This document shows positions 1,290-51,768 of a stretch of 64,000 nt of DNA, piece by piece. The position numbers and the translations under genes are program-made. Location of the stretch: positions 2,134,645 through 2,198,644 of the forward strand of contig NC_049993.1 of NCBI RefSeq assembly GCF_000003815.2, given 5' to 3'. Within the stretch, counting starts at the first letter, position 1. Every line of letters begins with the position of its first letter. Under the pieces are notes generated by a model that was given only the letters and a program-made list of their open reading frames with translations, ran no database searches and had not been told where the DNA came from. This DNA comes from Branchiostoma floridae (taxonomy: Eukaryota; Chordata; Leptocardii; Amphioxiformes; Branchiostomatidae).

Positions 1290-1870
1290 GTAAGTCTTTT
1301 TTAAAATTGTCATTATATCTGTATACCGATGGTTGCAATGTAACACTTTGCAGATCAGAACAAGATTACGACATTTCTTTTACTGTATCCATGTAATTAT
1401 TTATTGATTATTGCCCCAAAAGTTAAAAGAACAGTTGTTTGTCCTATAAGTCCATTTGCATTTGATGAAATAAACAACTGTCCTTTTTCACTTTCAGGAC
1501 AACCATACTGTAAATCGTATAAAACAGCAGAAGAATGAGCAAATATTTGCCGTAGGTCTAAAACATGATAATCGCAAAACATATACTAATGTCATAGAAT
1601 ATCCACGTCATGTTTATAGAAGGCCAACGTCAAGATCATGGTCCAAGATGACACGAAAGAAAAAAAGAGTAACATATTATTAGGTATTACTTTGCATGTT
1701 TGGTCATTTGCTTAACCATTGACCATTTAGATTTCATAGTAAAGGCAACGTTTTTGGGCAAAAATTGCTCCTCATCCACACGCTTGCAATTCGTCGTGGG
1801 GTTCGCACAGGATGATATTTGTATAACAAACCAGCGTGACCTTACCTAATGTAATCACGCAATCTACCAG

Positions 1871-2580
1871 GGCTTCCTGGGCCTCCCGGACTTCCAGGAA
1901 AGACTGGACTCTCCGGGCCACCTGGACCTCCCGGAGAGAAGGGTCCTATTGGACCAACCGGCAATGTGTCTACCGGACCTCCTGGGCTACCTGGACTTCC
2001 AGGAAAGGATGGACTAAGGGGGCCAATTGGTCCTGGGGGGAAGGATGGCCAGCCTGGGCCTGCCGGGTTACCAGGTCCTCTTGGAGGGAAGGGATCGAGA
2101 GGACCGCCGGGTCCCATAGGGAAGGCAGGGGTAGCTGGATCTGCCGGGCCTCCTGGAGCTCCGGGGGAGAGTGGACCAGTAGGACCTGCTGGCCCTGTGG
2201 GGATGGCGGGAAAAACTGGGCCTGTGGGGCCTTCTGGAGCTCCAGGAAGGAAGGGACCTGTAGGGCGCATTGGTCCCATGGGAAAGGCTGGGTCTGTTGG
2301 GCCTCCTGGGTTACCAGGAAAGAGGGGGGCCAAGGGGGCAGCTGGCCCCCCAGGGCAACCTGGAGAGAAGGGACTAAGAGGGCCAATTGGCCCCATGGGA
2401 AGAACAGGCAAGCCTGGGTCAGTAAAAGAAGGAAAGAGACACACAGGCCCGACTAAGCAAGCTGTGACACAAGGCAGCAAAGGGGCAAAGGGGAGCAAGA
2501 AACCTATTTTCATGATACCACACAATGCTCCGTCATTTCACCTTGGCCCAGATGGGAAGGTGAAAAGGGTTCTTCAATAA
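1871..2580 (+). CDS. collagen-like (Gly-X-Y) terminal exon
   Basis: The last exon opens after CTACCAG in phase 1 and reads to a TAA at 2578-2580. It encodes about ten Gly-X-Y triplets, a two-residue break (GNVST), then about fifty uninterrupted triplets such as GPP, GLP, GKD and GEK. About 50 residues of non-collagenous, Lys-rich C-terminus follow, ending KVKRVLQ. Pro and Lys are frequent in the Y position, typical of a stable triple helix. The exon is far richer in G+C than its surroundings. No globular C1q, lectin or SRCR head follows, so this may be a simple membrane or secreted collagen; the N-terminus lies left of the window. The long open frame on the opposite strand is only a shadow of the repeat. 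Confidence 0.85.
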
Positions 2581-6450: not shown

Positions 6451-6529
6451 GTTGGAAGTGAGTACAGTTTTGGTTGTAGGATAAAGGAGAATTATTTTTC
6501 CACAACCAGCAGGAACTTACATAGCTTAC

Positions 6530-6559
6530 GTTTCGATGTCTCTCAGATACCTTCGTCAG
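6530..6559 (-). ncRNA. hammerhead ribozyme-like core 2
   Basis: Minus strand: CTGACGA, stem GGTATC / GACATC with one mismatch and loop TGAGA, then GAAAC. It is the inverted partner of the motif at 6823-6852. Confidence 0.45.
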
Positions 6560-6599
6560 AACTTCTAACTGGAGCTATGCTTCTCACCGCTATATGTAG

Positions 6600-6800
6600 C
6601 CGATGAAGGTGAATCGTTTGCGGTGAGAAAACAGTCCCAAGCGTGGCTAAGCTTGTATCTCCCCCTCGTCCCGGTTCATCACTGGGGTTGAATATCTTAT
6701 CCAGATCGCCTCCTTAATCCACAGTGTCCGCCTGTTGTCTTCCGTGTCTATAACCTTTGCCCCCTCCCAGTCAATTACGCAATTGTTCATGGCGATATGA
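6600..6800 (-). mobile_element. Penelope-like element C-terminal fragment 2
   Basis: The minus strand reads VIDWEGAKVIDTEDNRR, then LWIKEAIWIR and MNRDEGG, the well-conserved end of Penelope-like GIY-YIG proteins. After a one-base frame change it continues YKLSHAWDCFL. The frameshift and the lack of any reverse-transcriptase domain show a dead fragment. It sits between inverted arms carrying hammerhead-like cores and overlaps the 3' side of the lectin gene. Confidence 0.7.
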
Positions 6801-6822
6801 TCTGTAACTCCAGTTAGAAGCT

Positions 6823-6852
6823 CTGACGAAGGTGTCTGAGAGACATCGAAAC
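6823..6852 (+). ncRNA. hammerhead ribozyme-like core 3
   Basis: CTGACGA (6823-6829), stem GGTGTC / GACATC with loop TGAGA, then GAAAC (6848-6852). All invariant core positions of CUGANGA...GAAA are present, and the stem is paired apart from one G-U. Confidence 0.55.
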
Positions 6853-6991
6853 GTAAGCAATGTAAGTTCTTGCTGGTTGTGTAAAAAGAATTCTCCTATA
6901 TCCTACATTTTACCAACCTGATGAAACTATTTTCGAACTCTGGGTGTGTTTCAAAGAACCTTAAGATAAAAGGCAATGCCATCTGACCTAC

Positions 6992-7393
6992 CTGTCGTCT
7001 GACAGATAAACTTGGCCTCTTTACTTGAGCACCTCTGATCGTTCCATCCCGTCTTTGCTTGAGAACTGTACTGTGCACAGTCTTCATCTCCGCCATGACT
7101 ATTCGGTTCTCCCTCTCGCCAGTCACTCCAGTTGGTATCCTGGTTGAGAACTTGCCCATCCTCCCACATCCACAGTCCCTCCCTGTTCTCGTCACTCAAA
7201 CCAAACCAGAAATAGTGCCAGGGATCCGCCTCGTTCTTCAAATACACTAAAAAGTCGTTTGTGTTCTTGTCTTTAGGCATGGCTAAAAGTCCGCTCTTGG
7301 CGGCACAAAACTGCCTCGCCTGGTGGTAGGAAACTATCGGGTGGTACGCCTTGAAGCAGGCTCCATTGAACTTAGTAGTGTCATCTGGACAGC
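6992..7393 (-). CDS. C-type lectin domain exon 4 (long form)
   Basis: The exon is 402 nt, phase 1 at both ends (acceptor CCCAACAG, donor GACAG|GTAGGTCA). It is a complete C-type lectin fold with the N-terminal CPDDTTKFNGACFKAY, which adds the extra disulfide of the long form. A WMWEDG stretch, an EPN motif before DEDC, and WND before the third core Cys are present. EPN with WND predicts calcium-dependent binding of mannose-type sugars. It differs clearly from the three upstream copies, so it is an older paralogue. Read past the donor, the frame would stop at 6951, so an alternative 3' end is possible. Confidence 0.85.
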
Positions 7394-8134
7394 CTGTTGG
7401 GAGAACCATGAATTTGTTAATGATTTAAATGATAAATTCAAAATAGAATAAAGTTTTGATGGCATATTTGGGGCCTTTCAGCTTTTAATACATGTTGATA
7501 TACGTTGGACAAGCAGTTAGATTAAAATATTACTCCACTTGGTGTACTTTACTTTACGTGGTGTACTTTGAAAATGGTTCAAATTCACGATTTTTGCCAA
7601 ACACCAAAATATGCTGACTTTTCAGGGAAAACCACTTCACAAAACGTTTCGACTCGAACCTGCACAAACAATTATATTATATGCCATGAATGGATCTAAC
7701 AAGAAATATAGCTAGAATTCTATTTTAGTTGGTCACGAGAAGGTACTTTTCATTTTCGGGAGAGAAAAGGGGAATGGCTGGAAAACATTATTTGCCAGTT
7801 ACAATAATAACTAAGAATTCAATCTAAAGAAGAGCTAATTGAGGAGTTGTGCACCAAGTACAATCTTTGTGCAAAATACGAGCCCAATCTATATTTTGAC
7901 ACCTGCTACAATCGTTTGATCTATACCGACACTTGCTCTTTAGAATTACGAAAAAAAAAACAGAAACCTAACCATTTTCTAATTGATATAACAGCGATAT
8001 TTCTCCTGTTTTTATCTTTCCCCTTTGTACCAAACAGAATAGAATCTTTAAGAATCACGACAATAATGATGCAATGTGCCTATTAAATGGAATATTTAGG
8101 CGCCTCAGAAAATACATATATATCTATATCTTCG

Positions 8135-8178
<44 letters not shown>

Positions 8179-11100
8179 CGCTAAATATTTGCAAACACCT
8201 GGGTAAACTTGGCACATGAAGGGCAGGGCTAGGTGGCAACTAATGTCATTCCATCCGACTGTTGAATGGTACACGGTCTGGACGCAGTGTTCCCCGCTGT
8301 CAGCGTTATTCGGCTCTCCCGGATTCCACGAGTTGTACTCTGCGAGTGCGGTGCCGTCTATCCACTCAAACTGCCCCTCTTTGCGCTGATCGTGCAGGCC
8401 GATCCAGAAGGCCCCAGATGTGCTCAAGGACTTGAACAGTGTGGTTTGCAAGTCGTCGGTGTCTTTGTCTCGGGGCATGGTGAGAGTACCGCCGTCCTGA
8501 CGACAGGTTGCAGTCGCTCCGTTGAAGCTTTTAGGTGTGTCAAACGCCTTGTAGTAGATACTGTGTAACTTTTTATAGCCTTTTAAAGGTAGAGGTCCTG
8601 GAAAAATAAGATGTTGTTGTACTTTTCGATATCACCACTTGTTGATTTTGACATTGTTCGGTATTCACTACACATTGCGTTGCCAACATATGTTATCTAA
8701 CTATTATGTTTAGATTGCATGCAAAGATTTCAACTTGATGCATGCAAAACTTTCAAGAAGAAGTTCTAGAATATTCAAGAATGAATGAAAAGATAAGAAG
8801 GAAAAAATATCAGCAATCACAATAGAGCACATACTTTCTATCACTTATATTTTCTTCTATTTTCCATTTTTCCATAATTAACAGGGTGTATTTCATTAGA
8901 ATCGTGACAATAATCGTGACAGTTCCTAAAAAAGAGTCAGTACTTTCAGGCGAGTTTAATGAATGTAATGGCCGTACTAAATGGGAAATTAAAATTAATC
9001 AATGTATTAAATACCTTGAATAACTTGGCAGACGAAGGACAGAGATTGGTGGCAACTGGCGTCATTCCATCCGAATGGATCAGGAAAATGGGAATGGACG
9101 CAGTCTTCCCCGCTTTTAAGATTATTTGGCTCCCCTGGATTCCACTGGTTGTACCCCCATGGTTTGGTGCCGTCTATCCACTCAAACTGCCCCTCTTTGC
9201 GCTGATCGTGCAGGCCGATCCAGAAGGCCCAGGGCGTGAAGAAAGTGGTAATGAAGAGGTTGGTCTCTGCGTCTCGGGGTAGGCGAGGGTACCGCCGTCC
9301 TGACGACAGGTTGTAGCCGCTCCCCTGAAGCTTTTAGGCGTATAAAACGCCTTGTAGCAGTAGATATCGCCCCACGATTTGTATCCTTCAGGGAAAGTAT
9401 CTAGAGATTTTTGTTTCAATAGCAAAAGTTAGAATGACATTCTTTGATGTTGAGATGGTTCAATATCCTCTACATGTTACAATACTAAAAAGGTATCATC
9501 TTTCTTTTACGTTTTTGCCTTACTGAAATGCACACACAGTGTATTTTCAGCATTAATTTTGAGAATACTCAAGAATATATAAAAAAGACTAGCTGCCACA
9601 TTATTTACACATCTAATCTTACATCTATCATAATTAAATATCGTCAGTTTTGATATTTTTTGTAATTTTAGCATTGTACTATGATCATTGCGAATACCGA
9701 TCATCTTCCATGATGATAGATGCAAAATTTAATGCGCTAATAATGTGATAGCTTGTCTTTTTTTATCTATTCTTGAAAATTCTCAAAATACTTGCTGAAA
9801 AGACACGTGTGTGCATGTGTGTATGAAAAAAAAAGATGATACCTGTTTTGACATTTTAACATGCAGTGGATATTGATTGAACCATGTCAACATGATAATC
9901 ATTGATCCTGAAGAATGGGATGGTGTTTTTTTGTGTGTTTTTTTATCAATTTCCCCTTATATCATTTTTCTCAAAACCAATATATTTCATTTGATCCTCT
10001 AAGGGATAATCAAATTATGATAATCTCAAGTCATAAGCTCAATGCATTTATTTATAGATTATGCAAGGTATTTTGGGTACCTTCATGGTTGATGGAAATA
10101 ATGCCACATATTTTCCTAATGATTTCACTGCAGCTAAGTTGGTTAATGTCTCAGAGGATGAGTCAATAAACACAAAGCTACTGTTCGAATGCGGGAAGGC
10201 CATCCTGGTTGTATCTGCATGCATTTGTCTTTGAACGTATTTCGGAAGGGAGGACAATGTTGGTCCCGTGTAGGAGGAAAATTTAGTAAGGTGCACTCAC
10301 ACTGCACTTGCGTCAAGCTTGCGTCACTGCCGGATTCGTTCACTGCGTCACTGTTTTGTTATTTTCTACGATTTTTTTTATAACTTTTATATTGCGTTAT
10401 GCGTAAAAGTATGACTTTCAAAACGACAAAATACACAAAAAATAAGAAAACTCGTTCTTTATCTCTGAAATTCATTGAGGATCTTTTGAACCCCGCAGTG
10501 ACGCAAGCTTGACGCAAGTGCAGTGATCGCGCACCTGTTGTTTCATAACTCGAATTGGTGCCTACTTTAGTTGAAGTACTACAACGCGAGTTACAAAAAC
10601 AAGTAATAAGAAAACAATGTACCTGGAACAACTTCGCAGATGAAATAGGCCCCGTGATGGCAATCCACATCGTTCCAACTGAGGCCGAATATTGCATTAG
10701 TGTGCGAATACTGAGTGCAGTCTTCACCGATGTCATCGTTATTTGGCTCTCCCGGAATCCACGAGTTGTACTCTCCGAGTGCGGTGCCGTCAACCCACTC
10801 AAACTGTCCCTCTTCGCGCTGATCGTGCAGGCCGAACCAGAAGGCCTCCTCATCGCTCACGGACTGGTACAATGAGGTGAGGAAGTCGTTCGTCTCCTTG
10901 TCTCGGGGCATGGCGAGGGTACCACCGTCCAGACGACAGGTCGCAGCCGCTCCGCTGAAGCTTTCACGTGTGTTGAACGCCTTGTAGTAGATTCCCCGCC
11001 AGGTTTGGTAACCCTTTGGAAAGGGTTCCGAAAGCTTCCAACTTGGAGGTTCTGAGTAAAAATTGAAACGTGTAAGTTTAATTTCAATAAATACTTTTAA

Positions 11101-14100
11101 TGTAAATTCAAATGCCTAATATGAAGCTATTTAAGGATATTACTATTGTAGATATATGCCAATTCTAAAAGTATAACCCCTCCAACAAGTACAGAAATGT
11201 AACAATAAACTGCCACTTTCCATCAGTTGCAGCCTGCATGGATGTCTGTTTTCAGACTTACATGTACACAGGACCTGTTTTTTGTTTTTTTTTTGCAAAC
11301 AAAACAAGTTGTGCTCTAACTATGCAAATAGAACGGGGGCCTACCCGAAAATACTTGAACTTCACACAAAGTCAGTATTCGGAATGGTCCGGGAAGACGG
11401 ACACCCACGAACCGTCCATTCATCCCCGGACATGGGACGGAGATCGAAGGATGGTCCAGGTCAATTTGACGATTATCTCCACACTTCGGGTTCTTGCTGA
11501 CCTGGTCGGAATCCCCGATGTGGATGTTGAAGGGGTTCAATCGCTCCGGACAACAGTCCTGGCGGTTGAAGATGACCACACTGTAGATGTTGAAAACAGA
11601 AAAAAGTCTCCAAATTTTATATCTTGAACTCGGATGAGCATTCTTTAAAAATCTCATTATATTTGACAGGTTATCAGCCTCTTCCGGCTAACTAAACTTG
11701 TATTTTTTTCTGTCATGTATTCGTCCATTAAAAGTTTTATTAGGTTAGTAAGTGACTGAAAACGATGTTCTCTATCCAAACTCAAGTGTTTTTAAAGTAT
11801 TAGACTAATGTCCGTCAATTTATTTTCCTGGGGGCAATTCTAACTGGTTCACTTTGCGCTGCATCATAGGTGTCGCTGTTTACAGATAGGCTCCCAAACG
11901 CAGAGTATGTTTATATAGCGCTTTGATAAAACATTTGTGTACAATTTTTAACCCCCTTTATCCCCTATTCGTCGTTGCCACTTCTCCAAAACTGTTGATG
12001 CAAAGGTGCGCACGTCTACCATACCGCTGTGTCTGTACATTTTGTGAATAGATAGAATACTTAGTTGTCTTCGGAGTTTGCGAAGAAGAGGACTGCAATG
12101 ACGGTCAGGGTGCACTCTCACCTCAGTTGGGACACCGGTGCAGTACTGCGGGGTTCTTAGATGACGCAAAGAATTTTCAGAGGTAAGGAACGAATACTCT
12201 TCCGGTTTTTTTTTTGGGGGGGGGGGGTATTTTGTTGTCTTTTAAGTCATACTTTTACGTATTTTGCAATATCTGAATTATCAAAAATCTCGAAAATAAC
12301 AAAACAGTGCCGCAGTAAACGAACCCAGCAATACCGTACCAATGCCCCAAGTGCAGTAGAGTCCACCTTCAGACTATGAATGTCGTATCCGTACCTGTCA
12401 ATCACGTAAGATACTCCAAGATCCACTTGCCATGTTGGATTGGCCTCTCCGGGTTTATTCTTAGTGTGTGTACACGAACCAATGTGGACGTTGTAGTCAG
12501 TATTGATGATTCCGTCTACGGCAAGCCCGGCAACTCGTTCTTCAAAGATGCTTGTTTGAAACGCTTTCTTCCCCAGGGCTACATTGACGACTTTTGCAAA
12601 CAACAGAATCGTCATTAGCAGTGTCAAGATCACACCAGTCCCATCAACGTTTAACCAGATATTTGTCTTAATACTTCATTATTAAAGGTATGCCATATAA
12701 CATAATATTCTATGAATGTAAGAGAATAGCAGTAATATAGGAAATAAACGTAAAGATAAATTGTTAGAACCGAAATTAGCGATTTTCGTCAAAAATGCCT
12801 GAAAAGAAACAGTTGACATAGCGACGGAAAAATTGAAATTTTTTAAAACTTTCTGAATTTGTTGCTAACTAAAGTCTAGGGAAACAAACTACGTTTGGTG
12901 GCTCTTGCGCTAGTCGTTTTGGCGTTATAAGACGTGAAACGTGGTTATAAATTAAAGCTCCCCTGCAAATAGTTAAGAGTTAAAAAGTTAAACCATTCCC
13001 GCGCCGAGATGGCGAATAGGGCGGTGCCCATCTCTGTTTCGTTAGCCCTGGTCCACACACAGCACAATCACTACAGCAGGGGGCTAGTCCACTGGTAGGT
13101 AGTGGTGTGTGTTCAACTTCTATTCCCTTTCCCGAATGCTGAGTGCTAAGCAGAGAAAGTATCATGTACCATTTTTAAAGTCTTTGGTCTATCGAACTCA
13201 CGACCCTCCGAATGCAAGGCGAACACTCTACCCACTAGGCCATTGCTACTCATTTTCACCTGAGTATAGTGAGGAAAGCCAAGTAAAGTGCCTTTCCCAA
13301 GGGCACAAGATCGGTGACACGCAGTCGGATTCGAACCCGCAACCTCTCGGTCACGAGGCAGAAATTCCGCCGCTGCGCCACACGATCCCATTGACTCTAT
13401 TCTATATAGTTAAGAACAACATGCCAATTATCAACAGAAGCGAATGAGACATCATTGATACATGCATTTTACTTACACCAGACCAGCCTATTAATTTATT
13501 TCCAGAATGGGAATAAAAAAGCTTTTATTTGACCTACCTGTCTTGTGAAAGCACCAGTGTGCATTTTTCGTAAAATCCTCGAAGCAGCATCCTCGCTGAT
13601 GACACTCCTCTGGAGTCATGCCTGGCCAACCGCAGTTCTTCCGTTTGTTGGGTTCCACCAGGCATGCTTAAAATAACAAGCACATGATAAACTAGAGTTC
13701 CACGATCTCATACCTTCGCCAAATAGTGTAAATCTTTTCGAGTGAAGTATTTATAATTTTTCCCATCCAATTAGTCTTTTGAAAGTCCTATCATGACTGC
13801 AGAGGATTTATTAACATTCCTAATTAATCATGTGAATTAGCGTTGATTTTCATGATAGTACTTTATAATGTAAGTCATCACTTAGGCTATCTACATACCA
13901 AAAATCATTACCACCTGTCAACACGTTCTCGAGTTATATCGTCCAAAGTTTGAAAGGAAATTGGCACCTGCAGCTCAAAAAGGCGCAAGGTAGCCAAATC
14001 GTACGGCACTTACTCCTATGCCCAGAGGGCTGTCTACCACTTAGAACTCACGATCACACGAAGTCCAGAAAGAGAGTTGTCGAAAATGGAAGTTTTGTTG

Positions 14101-16415
14101 TAGTATCTTAGGTAGCCGCTAGGGGTGCCACGATCAAATTTGACCTTCGTTTTCGTGACCCCTAACCACCTACCAAATATCATCACCATTCACCCAAGGC
14201 TTCTTGAGTTATGCTGTTAACAGACAGACAGACAGACACATAGACACAGATACAAACACGCTCAAAACATAACCGAAGGTGATGATTAAGAACGCAACAG
14301 ATAACAAAAACGCATAATATTATAAATGTTTACCCAAAATTACAAGATTAAACATGTGGGGCCTCGACGGAAAATCGACAATTATTAAGACACAATGATT
14401 CAAACCGTTTATATCTCGATATCATAAGATTCTAAGTAGTTAATATGAAGACTTAAGATTTGTATTAAGATCCATGCATCGGAAGATAAGCATCATACGA
14501 ACCATGTTTTTTTCACTTTCAATGTATGGTATTTTCAATGTTATGACATCCAAATTAGATGTTGTCATTACGCCCTTTCTTTACTTACATTTTGGAATTT
14601 TTTTCCACCCCACAAACCTAAGAAGTAGTTAGTACCAAAATTATTTCACAAAATTAACACACATGGCACAATTATATTAGTCATGGTCGAATCATACCAA
14701 GACAACAATATTTGAATAGATCACCTTCATTTGATTCACGCTGGTAAGATGTTTTCGGGTTCTCGGGAGGACTTGAAATTGTAAGTGCAAGCGGCAAGGC
14801 TGGTCCAACAGTCCCTCGTACATCAAACGGTCCCATGGTTTCCTTTTCTGCTGTGGCTTCAGACGTAGTTCCGCCTGGATGTTTCAGTTTTTGTGGCCAA
14901 ACTGATCCCATCGTCCCTGGAGGCCCAACCGGTCCCATGAGTTCCTTCAGTTTTGAAGGTTTATCAGTTACCCATTTGCCGATGCTTGGCCAAACAATCC
15001 CATTTGTCCCCTTTGCACCGTAGACCCAGACAACTTTTCGCCTTGAAGACCCATGAGGTTTAGTAGACCCAGGTACCCCGCCGTGACCCACCTTTCCCAT
15101 TGGCCCTTTCATTTTGGGAGATCCAGTACACCCAGGTTCCCCAACGTGGCAATTCATTCTCATTGGTCCCTTTATTTCAGGAGATCCGGTAGCACCAGGT
15201 AACCCGGCCTGATACACAAAACCCAGGTGTGCTCCCTCTTCAGATGACCCAGGAGACACAGCTTGCTCACCCTTTCCAGTAAGTGCCCTTTCTCCGTCAA
15301 ATCCAGTAGACCCAGGTAGCCCACCCTGACCATCCATTCCCGGAAGTTCATTTTCTCCAGGAGACCCAGTAGCCACAGCTAACCCAGTCTGGCCGCCAAA
15401 TCCAATGATTCTCTTTTTGCCTGCAGACGTAAGTTGGGTTGTAGACCTATTGGTTTCCTGACTCCCGGGGATTTCCGGACCCCCGGGATCCTCTGATCCC
15501 AGGTTAACAACTGGGCCAGTTACCCCTATTGGCCCCAAAGGTGTAGAGGTGCCAGGGTACATAGACGTGTCTGAAAGATATCCATGCCACCTAGTTAGGT
15601 TATCAATTCATGTTTAACACACAATTGAAGTCGTACTTCCTAGAAGCTTCTTCGTTTATCCAAGGTCACAATGAGCAAGAATATTCCTGCAGGCCTTATA
15701 GATACAAAGCTACATACGTAAATACGATCGTGAATATCTTCATGAGGTTGGAAGGTCACTAACATATTATTTTCACAGCCGATGTTTTATTTCTACCAAC
15801 GTTTCGATGACCGTCTATCACCGTTCACAGGGTAATCCTGACCAATCTACTTTGCTATAGGTTTAACATCGATCTTACAAATGTTGTTTTTTCCAAACGC
15901 AAAGTAATCACATATGCACAGTGATTGCTTTATGCGGTGTTTACAATGCGGTGACAAATGAGAAGAATGATAATATTTACATAACAAAATTAAATCAACA
16001 TTAATGATGGTGTAACAGTTATCGTATATTGCGGTCCCAAACGCGAGTGCAGTTTAATGTGATTTAGTAACAAATGCAATTAGTAAGGCGACAAGGTCAG
16101 CGGAAATTAAACAAAAAGGTTGCGTAAAAAGATTATCTCTTTTCCGTGGAAAGACAATGTAACACAATTGTGCAATTACAACCAAATTGACCTTACATTT
16201 ACTTGATGCTATAGATATAATAATCAAAACCAAAAGAAATTTTAATTTCATATATATCAGCGTCCGGAAAAGTTACGTACATTTTTAACTCATGTGTTGT
16301 ATACCACAATATATTAGACAACTCCACCAAGAAGTAGAAGTACTGATGAATTTTTGTTCATACATTAATGCATTTCATCGGGCATAGATATATTTATACA
16401 TGCATATCTATATAA

Positions 16416-16447
<32 letters not shown>

Positions 16448-16499
16448 CATATATTTATATATGTATATATAGAGAGAGATTTGGGGCTCTCTCTCTCTC

Positions 16500-16533
<34 letters not shown>

Positions 16534-19500
16534 TATATATGAATCTTCTGAAAACTTGTATACGTATATGTATATTGATTAAAAAAAACTCCGAAAATTC
16601 AATATAGTAGTAAAAAGTATTACTTACCATTCACTTTAGTGACCCGATTATTCATTTCCTCAGTAACGTTTGACACCTCCCCAGACGAACTGGTTACTTT
16701 TCCTTCAAATATGTAAGAAAAGACGTGCAAATAAACTGACTAAGAACATGGTAAATGGGACCTTCTAAGTATTAAATTAATTAGCCTTAGGCCACAGGAA
16801 GTAAATTTTATGGATGACATCATTTGCAGACGGCAAAAATAGTGAGATAGGGCAAAGAAAACCAAGATGGGTAATAAAAAAATAAGATGGCTAAATTTTC
16901 CAAATATACGCACTAAACGTACTAAAAAGAAAGAATTGAAGCGACGAAACATGGTAACACAGCCTACAAGGCATTCATTTCTGTATTCAATACGTATACT
17001 AGTGTAGAAAATGTGACACTAGTGTGGTATCTGGTATCACTTACCAACATGGCATCAACACTCATGGTTTCCATATTGGGGCCACTTTTACAGCTATCTA
17101 ACTAAATTTTTACTTTGACTTCTATAACTACAGTTATGGCTACCTGACTAGTGTCACTTCTACGAGTACAACCATTAGCCTATAACACAACATATTTGCC
17201 CATTTTGGTACTTTCTCGTCATGTTGACCATCTCCGAAGAAAATCAGGCGAAAATTAATGCGCACGCTAAAGTCATCCATAAGATTTGCTTGCTGAGGTA
17301 ACAAGTATAGCTTCGTACAGCAACATGAAAACACTGACCTACAAAATACGCCAACAGGACGACCGCGACCAAGCCGGAAACAAGGCTGATTGCTTTCCAC
17401 AGCTTCCTGCGTATCTTGCAGCACTCCGTCTTGTTTCCATCAGTGGGCTCATTATCGCTTACACCTATGGAACAAGAATGGAAACGTAAAAGGACATTAG
17501 TTATTGGTTATTGGTTGGGCCGACTACTCACTCTTTGCAGCCAGGGGCTGAATTGCGAGGAGCTTACAATAGGCGGGGCTAAATCGCAAGGGTCTGGAGT
17601 GAGCTGCCATTCCGCGCCACTCAATACGACAGTAAAATTGCCCCCAGGAGCGGCCAAGGTACTGTAGGTTTTGAACCATCCACACCGCACCATCGCACGT
17701 GTGGCGGCTTCTTTGACGTGCCTGGGGTATGGCTCTCCACAAACATGGGACCTCCATTTAACGTCCTATCCGAGGGACGGATGCTATTACTACTCACAGC
17801 TCATGTCACAAAATTGTGGAGCTCATCATCGGGAATGCGCCAAATTACGCCAAAGGACCTGACGCTAAAAACTCTACAAAACACACTGCGGGACATTAGC
17901 TTTCCGCTGAGGGAGTTCTTTACTTCACCTCAGGACAGTTTTCGTCGGGAAGCCCGATACAGGGCATCTAGAGGTAAAACCAAGGGACAGGAACCGTCAT
18001 TTGCGCCCCGTTCTCTAAGATTATTGTACCACAATGCTAGTTACTTAATAAAGATTGTTAATTCTATTGTATCTAGGTTTTTATCCGAACGCTGTCGAAT
18101 TTTAAAAGTTGTATTTATGCATCAGTGTTTAACGTCAATTGTATCACTGTCAAGCGATTCTGTGACTGATGGCGCATTTCATGTGTATTTATCTCATATT
18201 GAATTTCACATGCCTAGTCAATCAGAAATAAAGCTGAATCTGAATCAGAATGAATTGGTGTGTGTGTGTGTGTGTGTGTGTGAATGATTTCGAGGTTTTC
18301 CGAAAAACGAAAACTGGAATGGGCGTTTGCTTAGCCTTAGGAATCCGAGGCTGTCCCAAAATACCATAGGAATGGATGTTCAGGATTGTTTGCTTAGAAT
18401 TTTGGAGGTTGTCCAAAAAACAAAAACGGGAATGGGTGTTCAGGAATGTTTGCTTAGGATTTCAAGGTTGTCCGAAAAAACAAAAAAAGGGAATGGCGTT
18501 TGCTTAGCCTTAGGAACTCGAGGTTGTCCGAAACGACCCCGGGAGAGGGTGTTCAGAAAAGCTGTCCCCATGGACTCCAGGAATAGTAGAACCGATTATA
18601 GTCGGGACGTGAAATAAGGTTGTCTTAAAACACCCAGGGAATGTATGCTCTGTACTGTTGGCTTAATTTTTTTTTTATTGCATTCTACAGTAGAATATAC
18701 AATTCACATTAACAAAAACATAAGGACATGGACAAAAACATAAACCACGGATCCAACGGGAAAGTAAAAGACAATGTACGTAGACATTGCTAGTATAGGA
18801 AATATACAGACTGAAGTATGTAGCAAAATAATGTAAAACAGGATGAATAGATGGATGTAAACAATAATAAATAAATAATTCGGACAAGAACGTTAGGAAT
18901 TGTTACAAATAAAAGAATATAAGTGGAGCTATACAGTATGTATGGATGAAAGTTGAATACAAGATGTATTTGTGCGTATACGTAAAATAACCAAACCATA
19001 GTAACCATACGTCAAAAAGAAAAATAAATTAAAGCAACATCAACAATGACGGTACACAAGAAGGCAAGATGATGGCTGTTGGCTTAAAATTTAAAGGTTG
19101 TCCCAAAACACCTCGGGAATGTATGCTCAGGACTGTTTGCTTTGAAATTTAACGGTGTCCCAAAGACCCCAGGAATAGTTGTTCAGGAATGTTTGCTTTG
19201 AAATTTAAGGTTGTCCCCAAAGACCCCAGGAATAGTTGTTCAGGAATGTTTGCTTTGAAATTTAAGGTTGTCCCAAAAGACCCCAGGAATAGTTGTTCAG
19301 AACTGTTTGCTTTGAAATTTAAGGTTGTCCCAAAAGACTCCAGGAATGGGTGTTCAGGAATGTTTGCTTAGGAATTTGAGGTTGTCAAAAAACGGGAATT
19401 GGTGTCGGGAATGTTTGCTTTCAAATTCGACGTTGTCACAAAAGACCCAAGGAATAGATGTTCATGAATGGTTGCTTGGGAATTTGAGGTCGTCCCAAAA

Positions 19501-20934
19501 GACCCCGGGAATGGCTGGACAGAAATGTTTGCTTAGGAATTCAAGCAGGAATTTAAGGTTGTCCCAAAATACCCCGGGAATGGATGTTCAGAAATTAAAA
19601 ATTATTCCAAAACTAAAACGGAATTGGAGTTTTGGATTGCAGCTTAGGAATGTCCCAAAAAAGGGTAATGGGTGTTCAGGAATGTTTGCTTAGGAATTCA
19701 AGGATGTCCCAAAAGACCCCATGAATGGCTGGTCAGGAGTGTTTGCTTAGGAATTTAGGTTGTCTCAAAAGACCCCAGGAATGGGTGTTCAGGAATGTTT
19801 GCTTAGGAATACAAGGTTGTCCCCAAAGACTCTGGGAATGTGTGCTCAGAAATGTTTGATTTGGAATCCGAGGTTATCCCAAACGACCCCGGGAATGTAT
19901 GCTCAGGAATGTTTGCTAAGGAATTCAGGGTTGTCCCAAAAGACTCCGGGAATGGGTGTTCAGGAATGTTTGCTAGGGAATTCAAGGTTGTCCCGCATCC
20001 CAAAAGGCCCCGGGAATGTATGCTCAGGACTGTTGGCTTAGGAATACATGGTCGTCACAAAAGACCCTGGGAATGGGTGCTCAGGGATGTTTGATGAGTA
20101 GGTGTTCAGGAATGTTTACTTAGGAATTCAAGGTTGTCCAAAAAAACTTGAAAGGGTGTTCAGAAATGTTTGCTTAGATATTCGAAGTTGTCCCAAAAGA
20201 CCATAAAAATGGGTTTTCAAGAATATGTGCATGGCAATTCCACGCTGTCCCACTGGACCTTTTTCAAATTAGCAATTGACGTTAAAAATACCCGTCAACA
20301 ACGGGTCGGAAGGCAACCCGAAAAATTGGGAAATGTTCTTTTTTAATTGTTGACGCAAAAATAAGAAAAGGTAAGAAATTGGTGGCTCTGGCGTAAGCAA
20401 TTTGGAAGGTATGCAACTTGGAAGTTGCCACCCACTCCCACCCCCCCCACCCCTTGTCTGTTAAGGACCACATAGTTGAGCACGAGTAAGTAAAGCTAAG
20501 GGCACAACCCGCCGTACGTGCAAGTACGTGATGTCTACGTGCCAAAACATGGGCAATCTTTTGGGATCCGTAAGTGGTAAGTACCGCCTCCGTACGAACT
20601 CGTAGGGAATCCGACGGATTTTGGAGCACGCAGACACGCCGAAGAACTTTACGTGCAGGCAAAACTTTGTGTGCCATCGGGCTGCGGATTCGCCCCATGT
20701 ACGTGCCAGTACGGGCGACGCGCCTGTCCTGTATAGCCTGAACGTTTTCAGAAGTACATGGCGGACGTGGTCTTCAAAAAACGTACATACAAATTGCACG
20801 TACGGCGGGTTGTACCCGTACCCTTAGCTTAAGATGTTTACCTGTTCCAGAGGCGTAAAGAGCGTTGGGTGTGTTTGCAGTAATGTCCGCAAGGTGCGTC
20901 CAGTCAGTCCGGGACTGCTTCATATTCCTGACGT
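6992..20934 (-). CDS. composite type II membrane lectin gene (gene-level; exons listed separately)
   Basis: Ten exons read in one frame on the minus strand: cytoplasmic (20842-20934), transmembrane (17339-17464), stalk (16628-16702), eroded collagen (14725-15570), trefoil (13538-13666), F-type lectin in two exons (12395-12590, 11345-11580) and four C-type lectin domains (10623-11051, 9015-9400, 8199-8597, 6992-7393). All module borders are phase 1 and only the intron inside the F-lectin is phase 2, so the parts join without frame conflict except for the frameshift inside the second C-type lectin domain. A possible start exon lies at 30130-30172. The product would be about 1,100 residues: a cell-surface receptor recognising fucose and mannose-type glycans. 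The 3' end is unresolved because the last lectin exon ends in a donor and no terminal exon is recognised. It could instead be two adjacent genes. Confidence 0.65.
8135..8177. repeat. AT microsatellite in intron
   Basis: A pure (AT)n run 22 bp beyond the donor of C-type lectin exon 3. Confidence 0.95.
8199..8597 (-). CDS. C-type lectin domain exon 3
   Basis: The exon is 399 nt, with acceptor TTTTTCCAG and donor CCAG|GTGTTT, phase 1 at both ends. It reads YYKAFDTPKSFNGATATCRQ, then FWIGLHDQRKEGQFEWIDG, NPGEPNN, a core Cys and WNDISC, ending in FMCQV. It is a short-form domain: Tyr stands where the extra N-terminal Cys (CYK) of long forms would be. EPN and WND predict mannose-type calcium-dependent binding. 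It is strongly similar in DNA to exons 1 and 2, which indicates recent tandem exon duplication. Confidence 0.85.
9015..9400 (-). CDS. C-type lectin domain exon 2, frameshifted
   Basis: The exon is bounded by acceptor TCTCTAG and donor CAAG|GTATTT. It begins DTFPEGYKSWGDIYCYKAF and continues to CRQDGGTLA. Next to plus-strand position 9282 one base is missing relative to exons 1 and 3 (GGGGTAGGCG here against GGGGCATGGCG there), which throws the frame. Restoring register gives the usual FWIGLHDQRKEGQFEWIDG, NPGEPNN and WNDASC. The 386-nt length is one short of the phase-preserving 387. This is either a true disabling mutation, an allele, or a sequencing error. It also has an unpaired extra Cys (CYKAF). 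Confidence 0.8.
10288..10536. mobile_element. MITE family A copy in intron
   Basis: Left end AAGGTGCACTCACACTGCAC; right end contains GACGCAAGTGCAGTGATCGCGCACCT. About 249 bp. Its edge is 87 bp from the donor of C-type lectin exon 1. Confidence 0.85.
10623..11051 (-). CDS. C-type lectin domain exon 1
   Basis: The exon is 429 nt, acceptor TTTTACTCAG, donor CCAG|GTACAT, phase 1 at both ends. It reads YYKAFNTRESFSGAAATCRL, AMPRDKETNDF, FWFGLHDQREEGQFEWVDG, IPGEPNN, EDC and WNDVDC, ending YFICEVV. All four core Cys of the short form are present. EPN plus WND predicts calcium-dependent mannose-type binding. It follows the F-type lectin exon directly. Confidence 0.87.
11345..11580 (-). CDS. F-type lectin domain, second half
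   Basis: The exon is 236 nt, acceptor ATCTACAG (phase 2), donor TCGG|GTAGGC (phase 1). It reads VVIFNRQDCCPERLNPFNIH, GDSDQV, QIDLDHPSISVPCPGMNGRF and VGVRLPG, ending LTLCEVQVFSG. The R-x-D-C-C-x-x-R block is the fucose-binding signature of F-type lectins (usual form RGDCCGERL, with G replaced by Q here). The double Cys and the LCEVQV strand are typical of the fucolectin/tachylectin-4 fold. Confidence 0.88.
12107..12369. mobile_element. MITE family A copy, diverged, inside the F-lectin gene
   Basis: Left end AGGGTGCACTCTCACCTCAG, right end AGTGCAGTAGAGTCCACCTT. It has G-run and T-run expansions near 12210. It ends 26 bp from the splice donor of the first F-lectin exon. Confidence 0.75.
12395..12590 (-). 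CDS. F-type lectin domain, first half
   Basis: The exon is 196 nt, acceptor TTTGCAAAAG (phase 1), donor GACAG|GTACGG (phase 2). It reads VNVALGKKAFQTSIFEERVA, AVDGIINTDY, SCTHTK and WQVDLGVSYVID. NVALGK at the start and the SCTHT histidine, one of the three fucose-contacting residues in the family, mark the beginning of an F-type lectin domain. The split codon AG|T gives a Ser at the join, leading straight into VVIFNR of the next exon. Confidence 0.87.
13155..13391 (-). mobile_element. tRNA-derived SINE
   Basis: On the minus strand, a tRNA-like head (GTGTGGCGCAGCGGCGGAA ... GGTTCGAATCC, the polymerase III box B) is followed by ATCTTGTGCCCTTGGGAAAG and a second tRNA-like segment near 13180. 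The same post-box-B sequence follows the head at 46190, so both belong to one SINE family. It lies in the intron between trefoil and F-lectin exons. Confidence 0.65.
13538..13666 (-). CDS. trefoil (P-type) domain exon
   Basis: The exon is 129 nt with phase 1 at both ends (acceptor TTATTTTAAG, donor GACAG|GTAGGTCA). It reads CLVEPNKRKNCGWPGMTPEE, CHQRGCCFEDF and WCFHK. The six Cys and the R-x-x-CG-x-PG-x-T-x-x-EC-x-x-RGCCF pattern fit the trefoil consensus exactly. Trefoil domains occur in mucosal peptides and some sugar-processing proteins. Here the domain sits between collagen and lectin modules. It is too short for an ordinary open-reading-frame scan. Confidence 0.92.
13711..14280. mobile_element. 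TACCTTCGCC-ended repeat, copy 1
   Basis: It starts TACCTTCGCCAAATA and ends at ACATAACCGAAGGT, with a (CAGA)n tract near the right end. It is the same family as 44270-45831, sharing TCTACATACCAAAAATCAT and the (A/T)TCTTGAGTTAT blocks. No protein is seen. Confidence 0.6.
14281..14697. other. intron sequence, nothing recognised
   Basis: AT-rich, without repeat arms or coding signal by eye. Confidence 0.5.
14725..15570 (-). CDS. eroded collagen-like exon
   Basis: The exon opens after ATCTTTCAG in phase 1 and stays open for about 290 codons. Two good phase-1 donors exist: GAAG|GTGATC (end 14725, taken here) and CTTG|GTATGA (end 14698). The peptide is clearly derived from Gly-X-Y repeats (GPIGVTGP, GLPGATGSP, GPVGPPGTMG), but Gly is lost in many triplets and the register shifts several times, for example around KKRIIGFGGQ and VVWVYGAKG. 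Such a rod could not be a continuous triple helix. Yet it has no stop codon over 846 nt, so selection for an open frame, or recent decay, is possible. Compare the pristine collagen exon at 1871-2580. Confidence 0.75.
15571..16627. other. intron with diverged Penelope-type end and CT/TA/GA microsatellite
   Basis: Around 15785-15835 the minus strand carries a decayed hammerhead-like element (GAAACG retained, CTGATGA altered). A mixed (CT)n(TA)n(GA)n tract with partial palindromy lies at 16411-16532. No exon is seen. Confidence 0.5.
16628..16702 (-). CDS. stalk (coiled-coil-like) exon
   Basis: The exon is 75 nt, acceptor ATTTGAAG, donor GAATG|GTAAGT, phase 1 at both ends. It reads KVTSSSGEVSNVTEEMNNRV then TKVN, with V, V, M, V at roughly heptad positions and one N-V-T glycosylation sequon. 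It has the same length and phase as the plus-strand stalk exon at 1215. It links the transmembrane exon to the collagen exon and would help trimerisation. Confidence 0.7.
16788..17305. mobile_element. MITE family C copy (TAGGCCACAG ends)
   Basis: Left end TAGGCCACAGGAAGTAAATT; right end resembles the inverted complement (GTCATCCATAAGATTTGC). About 520 bp, non-coding, aligned over its whole length with 37647-38185. Inserted in the intron 34 bp from the transmembrane exon. Confidence 0.75.
17339..17464 (-). CDS. transmembrane exon
   Basis: The exon is 126 nt, acceptor TTCCATAG, donor GTAG|GTCAGT, phase 1 at both ends. It reads VSDNEPTDGNKTECCKIRRK, then LWKAISLVSGLVAVVLLAYF. A basic KIRRK patch precedes about 20 hydrophobic residues. 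With no signal peptide and the lectin modules downstream, this is a type II signal anchor with the N-terminus in the cytosol. The CC just before the membrane could be palmitoylated (inference). Confidence 0.75.
17480..18250 (+). mobile_element. possible retroposon 3' segment
   Basis: The stretch ends AATAAAGCTGAATCTGAATC followed by a TG run, resembling a retroposon 3' end with a short microsatellite-like tail. The class is not recognised and no reverse-transcriptase motif was seen. Confidence 0.3.
18256..18281. repeat. TG microsatellite
   Basis: (TG)n, 26 bp. Confidence 0.9.
18285..20270. repeat. 57-bp degenerate tandem array in intron
   Basis: Units of about 53-57 bp with the core GTTGTCCCAAAAGACCCC, GGAATGGGTGTTCAGGAATG and TTTGCTTAGGAATT repeat about 25 times, split by an insertion at 18668-19077. 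Because 57 is divisible by three, several frames stay open and mimic a repeat protein; no splice signals or start support coding. Confidence 0.85.
18668..19077 (-). mobile_element. retroposed insertion with target-site duplication
   Basis: About 410 bp interrupt the tandem array. Both edges carry CTGTTGGCTTAA or a close match, and on the minus strand the insert ends GCAATAAAAAAAAA, a polyadenylation signal and A-tail. This is the signature of a 5'-truncated retroposition. No protein domain is recognised. Confidence 0.6.
20493..20830. mobile_element. MITE family B copy 1 (338 bp)
   Basis: It starts AAGCTAAGGGCACAACCCGC and ends with the inverted GCGGGTTGTACCCGTACCCTTAGCTT; both arms contain CCGCCGTACGTGCAA or its complement. 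No open frame of interest. It stops 10 bp short of the splice donor of the cytoplasmic exon at 20841. Confidence 0.85.
20842..20934 (-). CDS. cytoplasmic-tail exon
   Basis: The exon is 93 nt, acceptor TATCTCACCAG, donor AACAG|GTAAAC, phase 1 at both ends. It reads VRNMKQSRTDWTHLADITAN then TPNALYASGT. It joins in frame to the transmembrane exon (GT|G VSDNEP). The hydrophilic N-A-L-Y peptide is suitable for a cytosolic tail. An internal ATG (MKQSR) could also act as the start. Confidence 0.6.
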
Positions 20935-25337: not shown

Positions 25338-25684
25338 ACAGTGAACAATACGTGAAATATTCAAGGTCACCGTACAGCGGTAAACAATACTTGAAATATT
25401 CAAGGACACCATACAGCGGTAAACAATACTTGAAATATTCAAGGTCACCATACAGCGGTAAACAATACGTGAAACATTCAAGGTCACCATACAGCAGTAA
25501 ACAATACTTGAAATATTCAAGGTCACCATACAGCGGTAAACAATACTTGAAAAATTTAAGGTCACCATACAGCGGTAAACAATACTTGAAATATTCAAGG
25601 TCACCATACAGCGGTAAACAATACTTGAAATATTCAAGGTCACCATACAGCGGTAAACAATACTTGAAATATTCAAGGTCACCA
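25338..25684. repeat. 39-bp minisatellite
   Basis: About nine copies of CAAGGTCACCATACAGCGGT plus AAACAATACTTGAAATATT. The 39-bp period (13 codons) keeps frames open on both strands (for example KYSRSPYSGKQYL repeats), but no start, splice or signal context supports translation. Confidence 0.9.
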
Positions 25685-29581: not shown

Positions 29582-29690
29582 TAAGGTGCACTCCCACCGC
29601 ACTTGCGTCAAGCTTGCGTCACTGCGGGGTTCGAAAGATACTCAACGAATTTTATTTTAGTTTTTATGCATTTTGTCGTCTTCTAAAGCT
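29582..29690. mobile_element. MITE family A, left half only
   Basis: It starts AAGGTGCACTCCCACCGCAC and runs to ATTTTGTCGTCTTCTAA, where family B copy 2 begins. No right half is seen beyond the insertion. Confidence 0.7.
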
Positions 29691-30016
29691 AGGGGCACAA
29701 CCCGCCGTACGTGCATATAAGTGCTGTCTACGTGACAAAACGTGGGCAATCTTTTGGGATCCGGAAGTGGTAAGTACCGCCTCCGTACGAACTCGGGAAT
29801 CCGACAGATTGTGGAGCATGCAGACACGCCGTAGAACTTTACGTGCAGGCAGAACTTTGTGTGCCATAGGGCTGCGGATTTGCCCCCCGTACGTGCCAGT
29901 ACGGGCGACGCGCCTGTCCTGTACAACCTGAACGTTTTTAGAAATACTTAGTGGACGTGGTATCCCCAAAAAACGAACGGACAAATTGCACATGCGTCGG
30001 GTTGTAACCTTAGCTT
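29686..30016. mobile_element. MITE family B copy 2
   Basis: About 330 bp, strongly similar to 20493-20830, with ends AAGCTAGGGGCACAACCCGC and GTTGTAACCTTAGCTT. It interrupts a family A copy, so family B moved later. Confidence 0.8.
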
Positions 30017-30129: not shown

Positions 30130-30172
30130 CTTTTGTGCACGTGTATCGGGACTGTTGCTGTCCACGCGACAT
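30130..30172 (-). CDS. possible start exon of the membrane lectin
   Basis: On the minus strand, ATG in the context GTCACCATGTCG opens MSRGQQQSRYTCTK and meets a donor AAAAG|GTACGG in phase 1, the phase required by the acceptor at 20934. If joined, the cytoplasmic tail would be about 70 residues. The intron would be 9.2 kb and full of transposons. This rests on phase and start context alone. Confidence 0.3.
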
Positions 30173-30531: not shown

Positions 30532-32033
30532 AGTTCGGCTAGTTGTTTGTTGTTTCTGTATGTGTCCATATTGTTCAGCAGGTATAATCGCCATTCGGAG
30601 GAATGCCATAAGTTGACAGGTAACGGATAATCTAAGTTTTAGACACAATGAAATCTTTTAACTTTACCAAGGACGTTATATAACGTTATATAACGCCCTT
30701 TCCTTTACTTATTGCAACATCAGAAACAGAACATGAAATACTGTTGCGCCGGTAAAATCGCCCTTCGGATTAATACCGTAACTTGACAGGTAAGGGGTAA
30801 TCTAAGCTTTAGACGCAATCTAATCTTTTACCTTTACCAAGGACGTTATAAGTCGTTATACAACGTCATTTCCTTTTCCTATTGCAACATCAGAAACGGA
30901 ACATGAAATATGTTTAGCCGGTATAATCACCCTTCGGAGAAATACCGCGAGTTGACAGGTGAGGGGTAGCCTAAGCATTAGACAGAATGAAATATTTTAC
31001 CTTACCAAGGACATTATATGTCGTTCTTGCCTTTACTTATTGCAACATCAGAAACAGAACATGAAATATTGTTTAGCCGGTATAATCGCCCTTCGGAGTG
31101 ATACCGCAAGATGACAGGTAAGGGGTAATCTTAGCATTGGACGCAATATAATCTTTTACCTTTACCAAGGACGTTATCTAACGTTATCTAACGCCCTTTC
31201 CTTTACTTATTGCAACATCAGAAAAAGAACATGAAATATTGTTAAGCCGGTATAATCGCCATTCGGAGTGATACCGCAAGTTGACAGGTAAGGGGTAATC
31301 TAAGCTTTAGACGCAATGAAATATTTTACCTTACCAAGGACGTTATATCTCATCCTTTCCTTTACGTATTGCAACATCAGAAACAGAACATGAAATATTG
31401 TTGAGCCTGTATAATCGTCCTTCGGAAAAATACCGCAAGATGACAGGTAAGGGGTAATCTTAGCATTAGACGCAAAGGAATATTTACCTTTACCAAGGAC
31501 GTTATATGTCGTTATATAACGCCCTTTCCTTTACTTATTGCAACATCAGAAACAGAACAGGAAATATTGTTGAGCCGGTAGAATCGCCCTTCGGAGTAAT
31601 ACCACAAGTTGACAGGTAAGGGATAATCTAAGCTTTAGACACAATGAAATCTTTTAACTTTACCAAGGACGTTATCTAACGTTATATAACGCCCTTTCCT
31701 TTACTTATTGCAACATCAGAAACAGAACATGAAATATTGTTGAGCCGGTATAATCGCCCTTCGGATTAATACCGTAACTTGACAGGTAAGGGGTAATCTA
31801 AGCTTTAGACGCAATATAATCTTTTACCTTTACCAAGGACGTTATAAGTCGTTACACAACGTCCTTTCCTTTTGCTATTGCAACATCAGAGACGGAACAT
31901 GAAATATGTTTAGCCGGTATAATCGCCCTTCGGAGAAATACCGCGAGTTGACAGGTAAGGGGTAATCTTAGCATTAGACGAAATGAAATATTTAACCGTT
32001 ATATAAACGTTACCCAAGGACGTAATATATATA

Positions 32034-47163: not shown

Positions 47164-47479
47164 AAGCTAAGGGCACAACCCGCCGTGCATGCTAAAACGT
47201 GGGCAATCTTTTGGAATCCGTAAGTGGTATGTACCGCCTCCGTACGAACTCGTATAGGGAATCGACGGATTTTGGAGCACGCTGACACGCCGTAGAACAT
47301 GCAGGCCAAACTTTGCGTGCCATCGGGCCTCGGATTGGCCCCCCGTACGTACCAGTACGGGCGACGTGCCTGCACTGTACAGCCTGAACGTTTTCAGAAA
47401 TACATAGTGGACGTGACCTCAAAAAAAAAAAAAAAAACGTACGGACAAATATCATGTACTGTGGGTTGTGGATAGCTTC
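47164..47479. mobile_element. MITE family B copy 3
   Basis: Left AAGCTAAGGGCACAACCCGC; right end decayed (GTGGGTTGTGGATAGCTT). Interior collinear with 20493-20830, with an A run at 47419. Confidence 0.75.
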
Positions 47480-50789: not shown

Positions 50790-51230
50790 CTACTGGGCCT
50801 CGTCGGTCTTCTCAGGCAGAAGCTCGGAATCGATGTCGGAGTCGGAGTCGGAGTCCTCGTCGGTGTTCTCAGGCAGAAGCTCGGAATCGATGTTGGAGTC
50901 GGAATCGGAGTCGGAGTCCTGTTCAATAATGTTGCCGGACATCAGCTTGTTCAACTCCTCGTCGTTGCGGACGGCCAGTTGAAGGTGACGGGTTGTGATC
51001 CTTTTCTCATTGTCGTCGCGTGCAGCGTTAACAGCCTGCTCGAGGATCTTGACGGTCACGCACTCAAGCGCGGCCGCCATGAACACCGGAGCGCCGGAAC
51101 CAACGCGCTGGGCGTAGTGTCCGTGTCTTAATAAGCGATGGATGCGACCAACCGGGAACTGGAGATCCGCTTGGGATGAAATGGTCTGTGCCTCGGCGCT
51201 TGCCTCTGCTCCTTTAACACCTTCAGACAT
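50790..51230 (-). CDS. divergent histone H2A variant with acidic tail
   Basis: Intronless, 146 residues. The H2A fold is clear from [20 protein letters not shown] (about 24-43) to [10 protein letters not shown] (about 87-97). The N-terminal tail ([20 protein letters not shown]) lacks the usual Arg/Lys. After [11 protein letters not shown] the docking domain is replaced by two tandem copies of an acidic unit ending IDSELLPE(N/K)TDE. In the acidic patch, E56, E64 and D90-E91-E92 equivalents are kept, but E61 is Lys ([11 protein letters not shown]). A loose docking domain and altered patch would make an unstable nucleosome (inference). The 3' stem-loop and downstream element indicate cell-cycle or germline expression. 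It is not any standard H2A, H2A.X or H2A.Z I recognise. Confidence 0.9.
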
Positions 51231-51270
51231 CTTGCAGTAGTCGATTGATTAGCGTTTAACGAACGACAAA

Positions 51271-51768
51271 GTGGATGGAAGAATGAATAGACAAAATCTC
51301 TTGCCCCACCAATTTATACCTCGCCGCTGGATAGACAACTTGCGTACGACAAAGTGGATGGAAGAATGAATAGACAAAATGCCCTGCCCCACCAATTTAT
51401 ACCTCGCCGCTGGATAGACAACTTGCGTACGACAAAGTGGATGGAAGAATGAATAGACAAAATGCCCTGCCCCACCAATTTATACCTCGCCGCTGGATGG
51501 ACAACTTGCGTACGACAAAGTGGATGGAAGAATGAATAGACAAAATGTCCTGCCCCACCAATTTATACCTCGCCGCTGGATAGACAACTTGCGTACGACA
51601 AAGTGGATGGAAGAATGAATAGACAAAATGTCCTGCCCCACCAATTTATACCTCGCCGCTGGATAGACAACTTGCGTACGACAAAGTGGATGGAAGAATG
51701 AATAGACAAAATGTCCTGCCCACCAATTTACACCTCGCCACTGGATAGACAACTTCCAACCGCGGACC
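51271..51768 (-). promoter_or_regulatory. six tandem 83-bp promoter-like repeats
   Basis: GTGGATGGAAGAATGAATAG starts units at 51271, 51354, 51437, 51520, 51603 and 51686, an exact 83-bp period. On the minus strand each unit carries GGTATAAATTGGTGGGG, a TATAAA box with an adjacent inverted CCAAT (ATTGG). The nearest TATAAA (51313-51318) is about 85 bp upstream of the H2A variant ATG. The farthest unit has TGTAAA instead. Confidence 0.8.

Follow-up and report, generated by a model that had tools for sequence, protein, structure and literature searches.

A candidate type II lancelet receptor gene with collagen-derived stalk, trefoil, F-type lectin and C-type lectin exons

Organization of the Locus

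Twelve exons that bear named domains can be read on the minus strand of the window, that is, the whole 64-kb stretch of lancelet DNA analysed here, from position 30172 down to position 6992. Their borders were set by hand on the minus strand of 6501-18500 and of two upstream stretches and were then checked with a script; AG/GT splice borders are found on the exon set and all outer borders are in phase 1. A sequence-only reading of the same DNA had counted ten exons, while eleven are counted within 6992-20934, or ten if the F-type lectin (F-lectin) is taken once. The phase-1 borders that it described as shared are present at all outer borders, but the inner intron of the F-lectin is in phase 2. 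With the second of the four C-type lectin domains (CTLD2) skipped, eleven exons join into an open frame of 991 residues. There is no terminal stop codon in the set, because the last exon, encoding CTLD4, ends at a splice donor.

The relatives of each segment were taken from two protein searches, and the domain-order counts given below refer to the 218 distinct proteins listed from both, among which lancelet predictions may be wrongly split or fused. By printed names, Branchiostoma accounts for 106 of the 120 proteins listed in the first search (of 367 matches) and for 110 of the 120 listed in the second (of 282 matches), which makes a lancelet the likely source.

Tail, Membrane Anchor and Stalk

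The cytoplasmic tail that had been proposed is encoded by two exons. The first (30130-30172) contains the start codon and tail residues 1-14 (MSRGQQQSRYTCTK) and has a phase-1 donor, and the second (20842-20934, phase 1-1) encodes the remainder of the tail, including the NPxY-like motif NALY. They match the tails of lancelet type II lectins, with 12 proteins recovered, among them P0157, P0168, P0036 and P0089. The transmembrane (signal-anchor) exon (17339-17464, phase 1-1) matches the transmembrane segments of P0157, P0167, P0089 and P0036. P0157 (LOC144903350, Branchiostoma floridae x B. belcheri, 546 aa) has, in the same order as the window gene, a tail, a transmembrane segment, a degenerate collagen, a trefoil and a C-terminal CTLD; it differs in that the trefoil leads straight to the CTLD without an F-lectin and in that this CTLD is single. 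The tail and transmembrane segment align with those of P0157 at 47% over 85 residues (tail alone, 52% over 44; transmembrane segment alone, 50% over 32).

The short stalk exon (16628-16702, phase 1-1) gave no match when searched alone against proteins, while the transmembrane and stalk exons combined align to P0167 at 45% over 49 residues. The lancelet type II collagen-CTLD receptors P0089, P0036 and P0167 have a similar tail, transmembrane segment and style of stalk, with the collagen followed by a CTLD, and protein alignments show the tail and transmembrane exons to be common to these receptors and the window gene. Unlike the window gene, they have a collagen that passes the Pfam cut-off, and neither a trefoil nor an F-lectin. 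NPxY occurs in 12 of 23 tail copies of relatives, all chosen by a pattern that already required NxxY. NALY varies the NPxY-like motif seen in these relatives and would suit uptake or adaptor binding.

The next exon (14725-15570) is an 846-nt, stop-free and degenerate collagen-like stalk exon. The predicted collagen is present as an exon, but not as a regular triple helix: in the best register Gly occupies 36 of 94 triplets, and the Pfam score of 15.4 bits lies below the cut-off of 27.2, short of regular Gly-X-Y collagen. The collagen of P0157 is likewise under the cut-off (20.6 bits, Gly at 39 of 86 triplets). The exon is 46% identical to P0157 over 132 residues, and the collagen-trefoil region aligns with it at 37% over 327 residues (E 1e-37). 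In simulated neutral decay from perfect Gly-X-Y, about 7.8 stops had accumulated by the time that Gly had fallen to 36/94, and 1 of 3000 runs (0.03%) was stop-free; starting from ancestors with Gly at 80/94 and at 43/94, the stop-free runs amounted to 0.13% and 13%, respectively. A perfect-collagen ancestor under neutral decay would rarely leave the exon stop-free. If, however, the ancestral stalk was already as degenerate as that of P0157, the absence of stops is not telling, as the 13% of runs indicates. Two histories are conceivable: maintenance of the frame during loss of the helix, or a stalk that a shared ancestor possessed in degenerate form; the likeness to P0157 fits the latter as well. 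The stalk would be collagen-derived and probably not triple-helical.

Trefoil and F-Type Lectin

The trefoil (P-type) exon (13538-13666, phase 1-1) is clear, with a Pfam score of 52.1 bits against a cut-off of 21, and is 61% identical to the trefoil of P0157 over 41 residues. A protein search with the trefoil region only returned zero matches; this null result is uninformative, since P0157 was missed too, although the database contains its trefoil.

The F-lectin is distributed over two exons, 12395-12590 (acceptor phase 1, donor phase 2) and 11345-11580 (acceptor phase 2, donor phase 1), the second containing NRQDCCPER. The two exons each carry half of an F5/8-type domain, with scores of 31.4 and 26.7 bits against a cut-off of 27.8, and splicing across the phase-2 intron raises the Pfam score to 67.7 bits. 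Searches of the PDB, which merely assign the window domains to their families, show resemblance to the F-lectins FBP32 (3cqo) and 1k12. The fucose-site motif H...RxDCCxxR is kept, as had been noticed, and, in the 218 listed relatives, 116 of the 212 F-lectin domains longer than 110 aa show the same strict form. The best F-lectin match among the matches listed has 75.5% identity. To judge from the families, the trefoil may be a mucosal module, as it had been called, and the sugar specificity of the lectins can be predicted in the same way.

C-Type Lectin Domains

Four CTLD exons follow: CTLD1 (10623-11051, phase 1-1), CTLD2 (9015-9400), CTLD3 (8199-8597, phase 1-1) and CTLD4 (6992-7393). The three intact Lectin_C exons score 77.0, 76.3 and 77.9 bits in Pfam, while CTLD2, as sequenced, contains a one-base frameshift and is split across two frames that score 14.3 bits (below the cut-off of 22.6) and 60.0 bits. 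EPN and WND are the calcium-site motifs of mannose-type C-type lectins. The four EPN/WND domains of the sequence-only reading are found as far as the motifs are concerned, in full frame in CTLD1, CTLD3 and CTLD4 and in one of the two pieces in CTLD2; EPN occurs in 178 of the 337 CTLDs of the listed relatives. The joining in frame of all exons, in contrast, does not hold. The CTLD2 exon is 386 nt long, no frame is open throughout and its inclusion brings stop codons, so that the one-base frameshift prevents an in-frame join of the four CTLDs. In an alignment of CTLD2 to CTLD1 and CTLD3 there is one single-base gap, and all remaining gaps are multiples of three. The break could be a sequencing error, a single allele or a pseudo-exon. 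A mini-intron restoring the frame was dismissed by eye, as its length would be about 26 bases.

Both pieces of CTLD2 find their best match in the second domain of P0121 (74% and 76%), a 365-aa ‘C-type mannose receptor 2-like’ protein of B. floridae x B. japonicum with a tandem array of three CTLDs. P0121 differs from the window gene in starting within its first CTLD, stopping after the third and having no CTLD4-like domain; because it is cut at its start, it is uninformative on upstream domains. CTLD1-3 match this three-CTLD array, with CTLD2 frame-broken and the end of the window gene outside view. In a tree of 62 CTLDs, from which the broken CTLD2 was omitted and for which the bootstrap had not settled, CTLD1 and CTLD3 cluster with the three CTLDs of P0121 (support 99/96), with weak single-domain pairings within the group (96/32 and 82/19). 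The CTLD of P0157 falls outside the CTLD1/CTLD3 group of this tree, on a branch that is long and unsure. The dN/dS ratio between CTLD1 and CTLD3 is about 0.43 over 131 codons, a figure that reflects past selection only.

CTLD4 has a different affinity. In the same tree it clusters with the CTLD of P0002, P0003 and P0044 that comes immediately behind the signal peptide (support 100/99), and its identity with the first domain of this type in P0003 and P0044 is about 66-67%. This Pentaxin-CTLD family resembles the window gene in a first CTLD akin to CTLD4 and differs from it in having a signal peptide immediately before that CTLD, followed by pentaxin and MAM domains. Because CTLD4 groups with a signal-peptide-adjacent CTLD of another lancelet family, a gene boundary before CTLD4 seems likely, and the exon is probably part of a unit that is neighbouring or stranded. 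CTLD4 may have been captured by this gene or may come from another one, as its first exon or as a stranded exon, and we lean towards another gene. No pentaxin or MAM match, or any other match to the Pentaxin-CTLD family, is found within the 64-kb window; such a gene could extend past it.

Domain Orders in Relatives

The order collagen-trefoil-F-lectin-CTLD is found in 0 of the 218 listed relatives, and a search of titles and abstract beginnings in the open-licence literature gave no such protein among the matches listed. Its parts are met with at different frequencies in the same 218 proteins. An F-lectin directly followed by a CTLD occurs in 48, a trefoil followed by a CTLD in two, a trefoil followed by an F-lectin in two (P0029 and P0039, with about 60 residues between the two domains and otherwise built differently), collagen followed by a trefoil in one and collagen followed by an F-lectin in one. 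The F-lectin-CTLD order is shared by P0010 (B. lanceolatum, 624 aa), which differs from the window gene in the absence of trefoil and collagen and in extra discoidin and F-lectin domains downstream. The alignment with P0010 spans the junction between F-lectin and CTLD1 (63% over 285 residues, E 4e-117). Passages of PMC5712786 describe F-lectins joined to other domains, CTLDs included, with lancelet examples.

The domain order of the window is a new one within a known gene style. Among vertebrate proteins, CL-P1 (COLEC12) is not known to carry a trefoil or an F-lectin. It is introduced in PMC5357964 as a membrane protein of type II that combines a collagen-like domain with one for carbohydrate recognition, and in these respects it is like the window protein.

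Hidden Gene Starts and Ends

A scan of both strands of the 64 kb for signal peptides gave, with strict settings, 13 matches that fall into 9 separate places. Between the stalk and collagen exons lies a strongly hydrophobic, signal-peptide-like stretch (MKLKFLLVLIIISIAS, 16251-16203, minus strand) with a phase-1 donor. It is a possible, weak candidate for an alternative, secreted start, and not a special one, because of the number of matches given by the strict scan. Between trefoil and F-lectin the scan found one weak candidate, with relaxed settings; it found no signal-peptide exon between F-lectin and CTLD1 and none between CTLD3 and CTLD4, even with relaxed settings in the latter case. Polyadenylation hexamers were dropped as markers of gene ends, being too abundant.

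One Gene or Several

On the basis of the sequence, the preferred reading is a single gene for a type II lancelet receptor, extending from the tail at 30.17 kb to CTLD3 at 8.2 kb and built by phase-1 exon shuffling, to which we give a probability of about 0.6. Its exons would be spliced into one mRNA. The joins differ in strength. A single gene from tail to trefoil is well supported, because P0157 matches the tail and transmembrane segment as well as the collagen-trefoil region within one predicted protein. The join between F-lectin and CTLD1 is likewise supported, because P0010 aligns across the junction. The weakest join is that from trefoil to F-lectin, for which the backing comes only from the differently built P0029 and P0039. 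Of the one protein proposed in the sequence-only reading, the stretches covered by P0157 and P0010 are therefore supported, while the four-CTLD end is not, in view of the break in CTLD2, the ancestry of CTLD4 and the stop of P0121 after three CTLDs.

The same joins could be broken up into at least two head-to-tail genes: a P0157-like one with tail, collagen and trefoil, a P0010/P0121-like one with F-lectin and CTLDs, and CTLD4 in a third, the fusion being an artefact of the reading. The closest relatives among the matches listed are indeed separate predicted proteins, the ancestor of CTLD4 would be a first CTLD behind a signal peptide, and passages of PMC4967905 describe a lancelet Lectin_C gene whose apparent fusion was disproved by ESTs. 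However, neither F-lectin nor CTLD1 has a convincing upstream start or signal-peptide exon, every border is phase-compatible and P0157 already possesses a join of trefoil to CTLD. Moreover, the P0010 and P0121 models begin inside or just before their domains, so that the separateness of these relatives may reflect models that are cut short. We consider such a division unlikely, but it deserves to be taken seriously. A comparably low probability is given to a single receptor that has trefoil and fucose lectin between the stalk and the CTLD array and that also captured CTLD4 from the beginning of a pentaxin-CTLD gene, through repeated exon capture. If this were true, the CTLD4-capturing receptor would be a surface protein reading fucose and mannose together.

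It could also be imagined that the receptor gene is decaying, with the one-base frameshift in CTLD2 and the loss of Gly in the collagen as signs of a pseudogene in progress. This is distinctly improbable: the remaining eleven exons are open and have plausible borders, a degenerate collagen is also found in P0157, and the single-base gap may stem from a sequencing error or be confined to one allele. The dN/dS of CTLD1 and CTLD3 speaks against decay as well, as far as past selection is concerned.

Predicted Architecture and Significance

In the single-gene reading, phase-1 exon shuffling would have built a type II surface lectin with an NPxY-like tail, predicted to lie inside the cell, a signal anchor and a long collagen-derived stalk. 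The trefoil would sit between this stalk and the lectins, namely, one fucose lectin and a pair of CTLDs whose sites are intact. The F-lectin would bind fucose and the EPN/WND CTLDs mannose-type sugars, on microbes or on mucus. With several sites, the receptor may engage fucose- and mannose-bearing surfaces simultaneously, and this could drive uptake.

The rate at which lancelets acquire new domain combinations is exceptional according to some and disputed by others, and the locus offers a case that can be checked. Huang et al. 2014 (PMC4284660) report that, among metazoans, exon shuffling is fastest in lancelets and is biased towards 1-1 phases, whereas Banyai and Patthy 2016 (PMC4967905) attribute many lancelet domain combinations to gene-model errors and give the example of a lancelet lectin, published as one fused protein, that turned out to come from two genes. 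The locus suits this dispute, with a named relative for each segment and few doubtful joins. Should the join prove real, a single surface receptor would unite a fucose lectin with mannose-type lectins in an animal that lacks antibodies.

Neighbouring Features

Several other features lie within the window. A tRNA-like repeat, recognized by eye from its GGTTCGAATCC box, is found at about 13000-13400 on the minus strand, within the intron that separates trefoil from F-lectin. A regular Gly-X-Y collagen exon (1855-2580, plus strand, Pfam 94.8 bits) points to a neighbouring collagen gene in the opposite orientation; a search with 120 relatives gave no match to a transmembrane segment or CTLD in its vicinity. 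A signal-peptide-like first exon (MKLPMFILFMGCIVLAVAITEEEMEG..., 43964-43847, minus strand) has a good donor and no Pfam match, and exons for calcium-binding EGF domains (60697-63465, minus strand) come from another gene. Copies of a repeat at 20492-20719, 29673-29909 and 47186-47350 (plus strand) are also found within the predicted B. belcheri protein P0047 (Bbelb_201130); the repeat is likely a mobile element that was taken for coding sequence. Tandem arrays with units of 170 bp and 39 bp lie just upstream of exon 1 (30568-32001) and in the first intron (25344-25684), respectively. A histone-fold open reading frame (50790-51248, minus strand, Pfam Histone 47 bits) has a long, acidic, Ser/Asp-rich C-terminal tail and is adjoined by an 83-bp tandem array with six copies (51263-51755).
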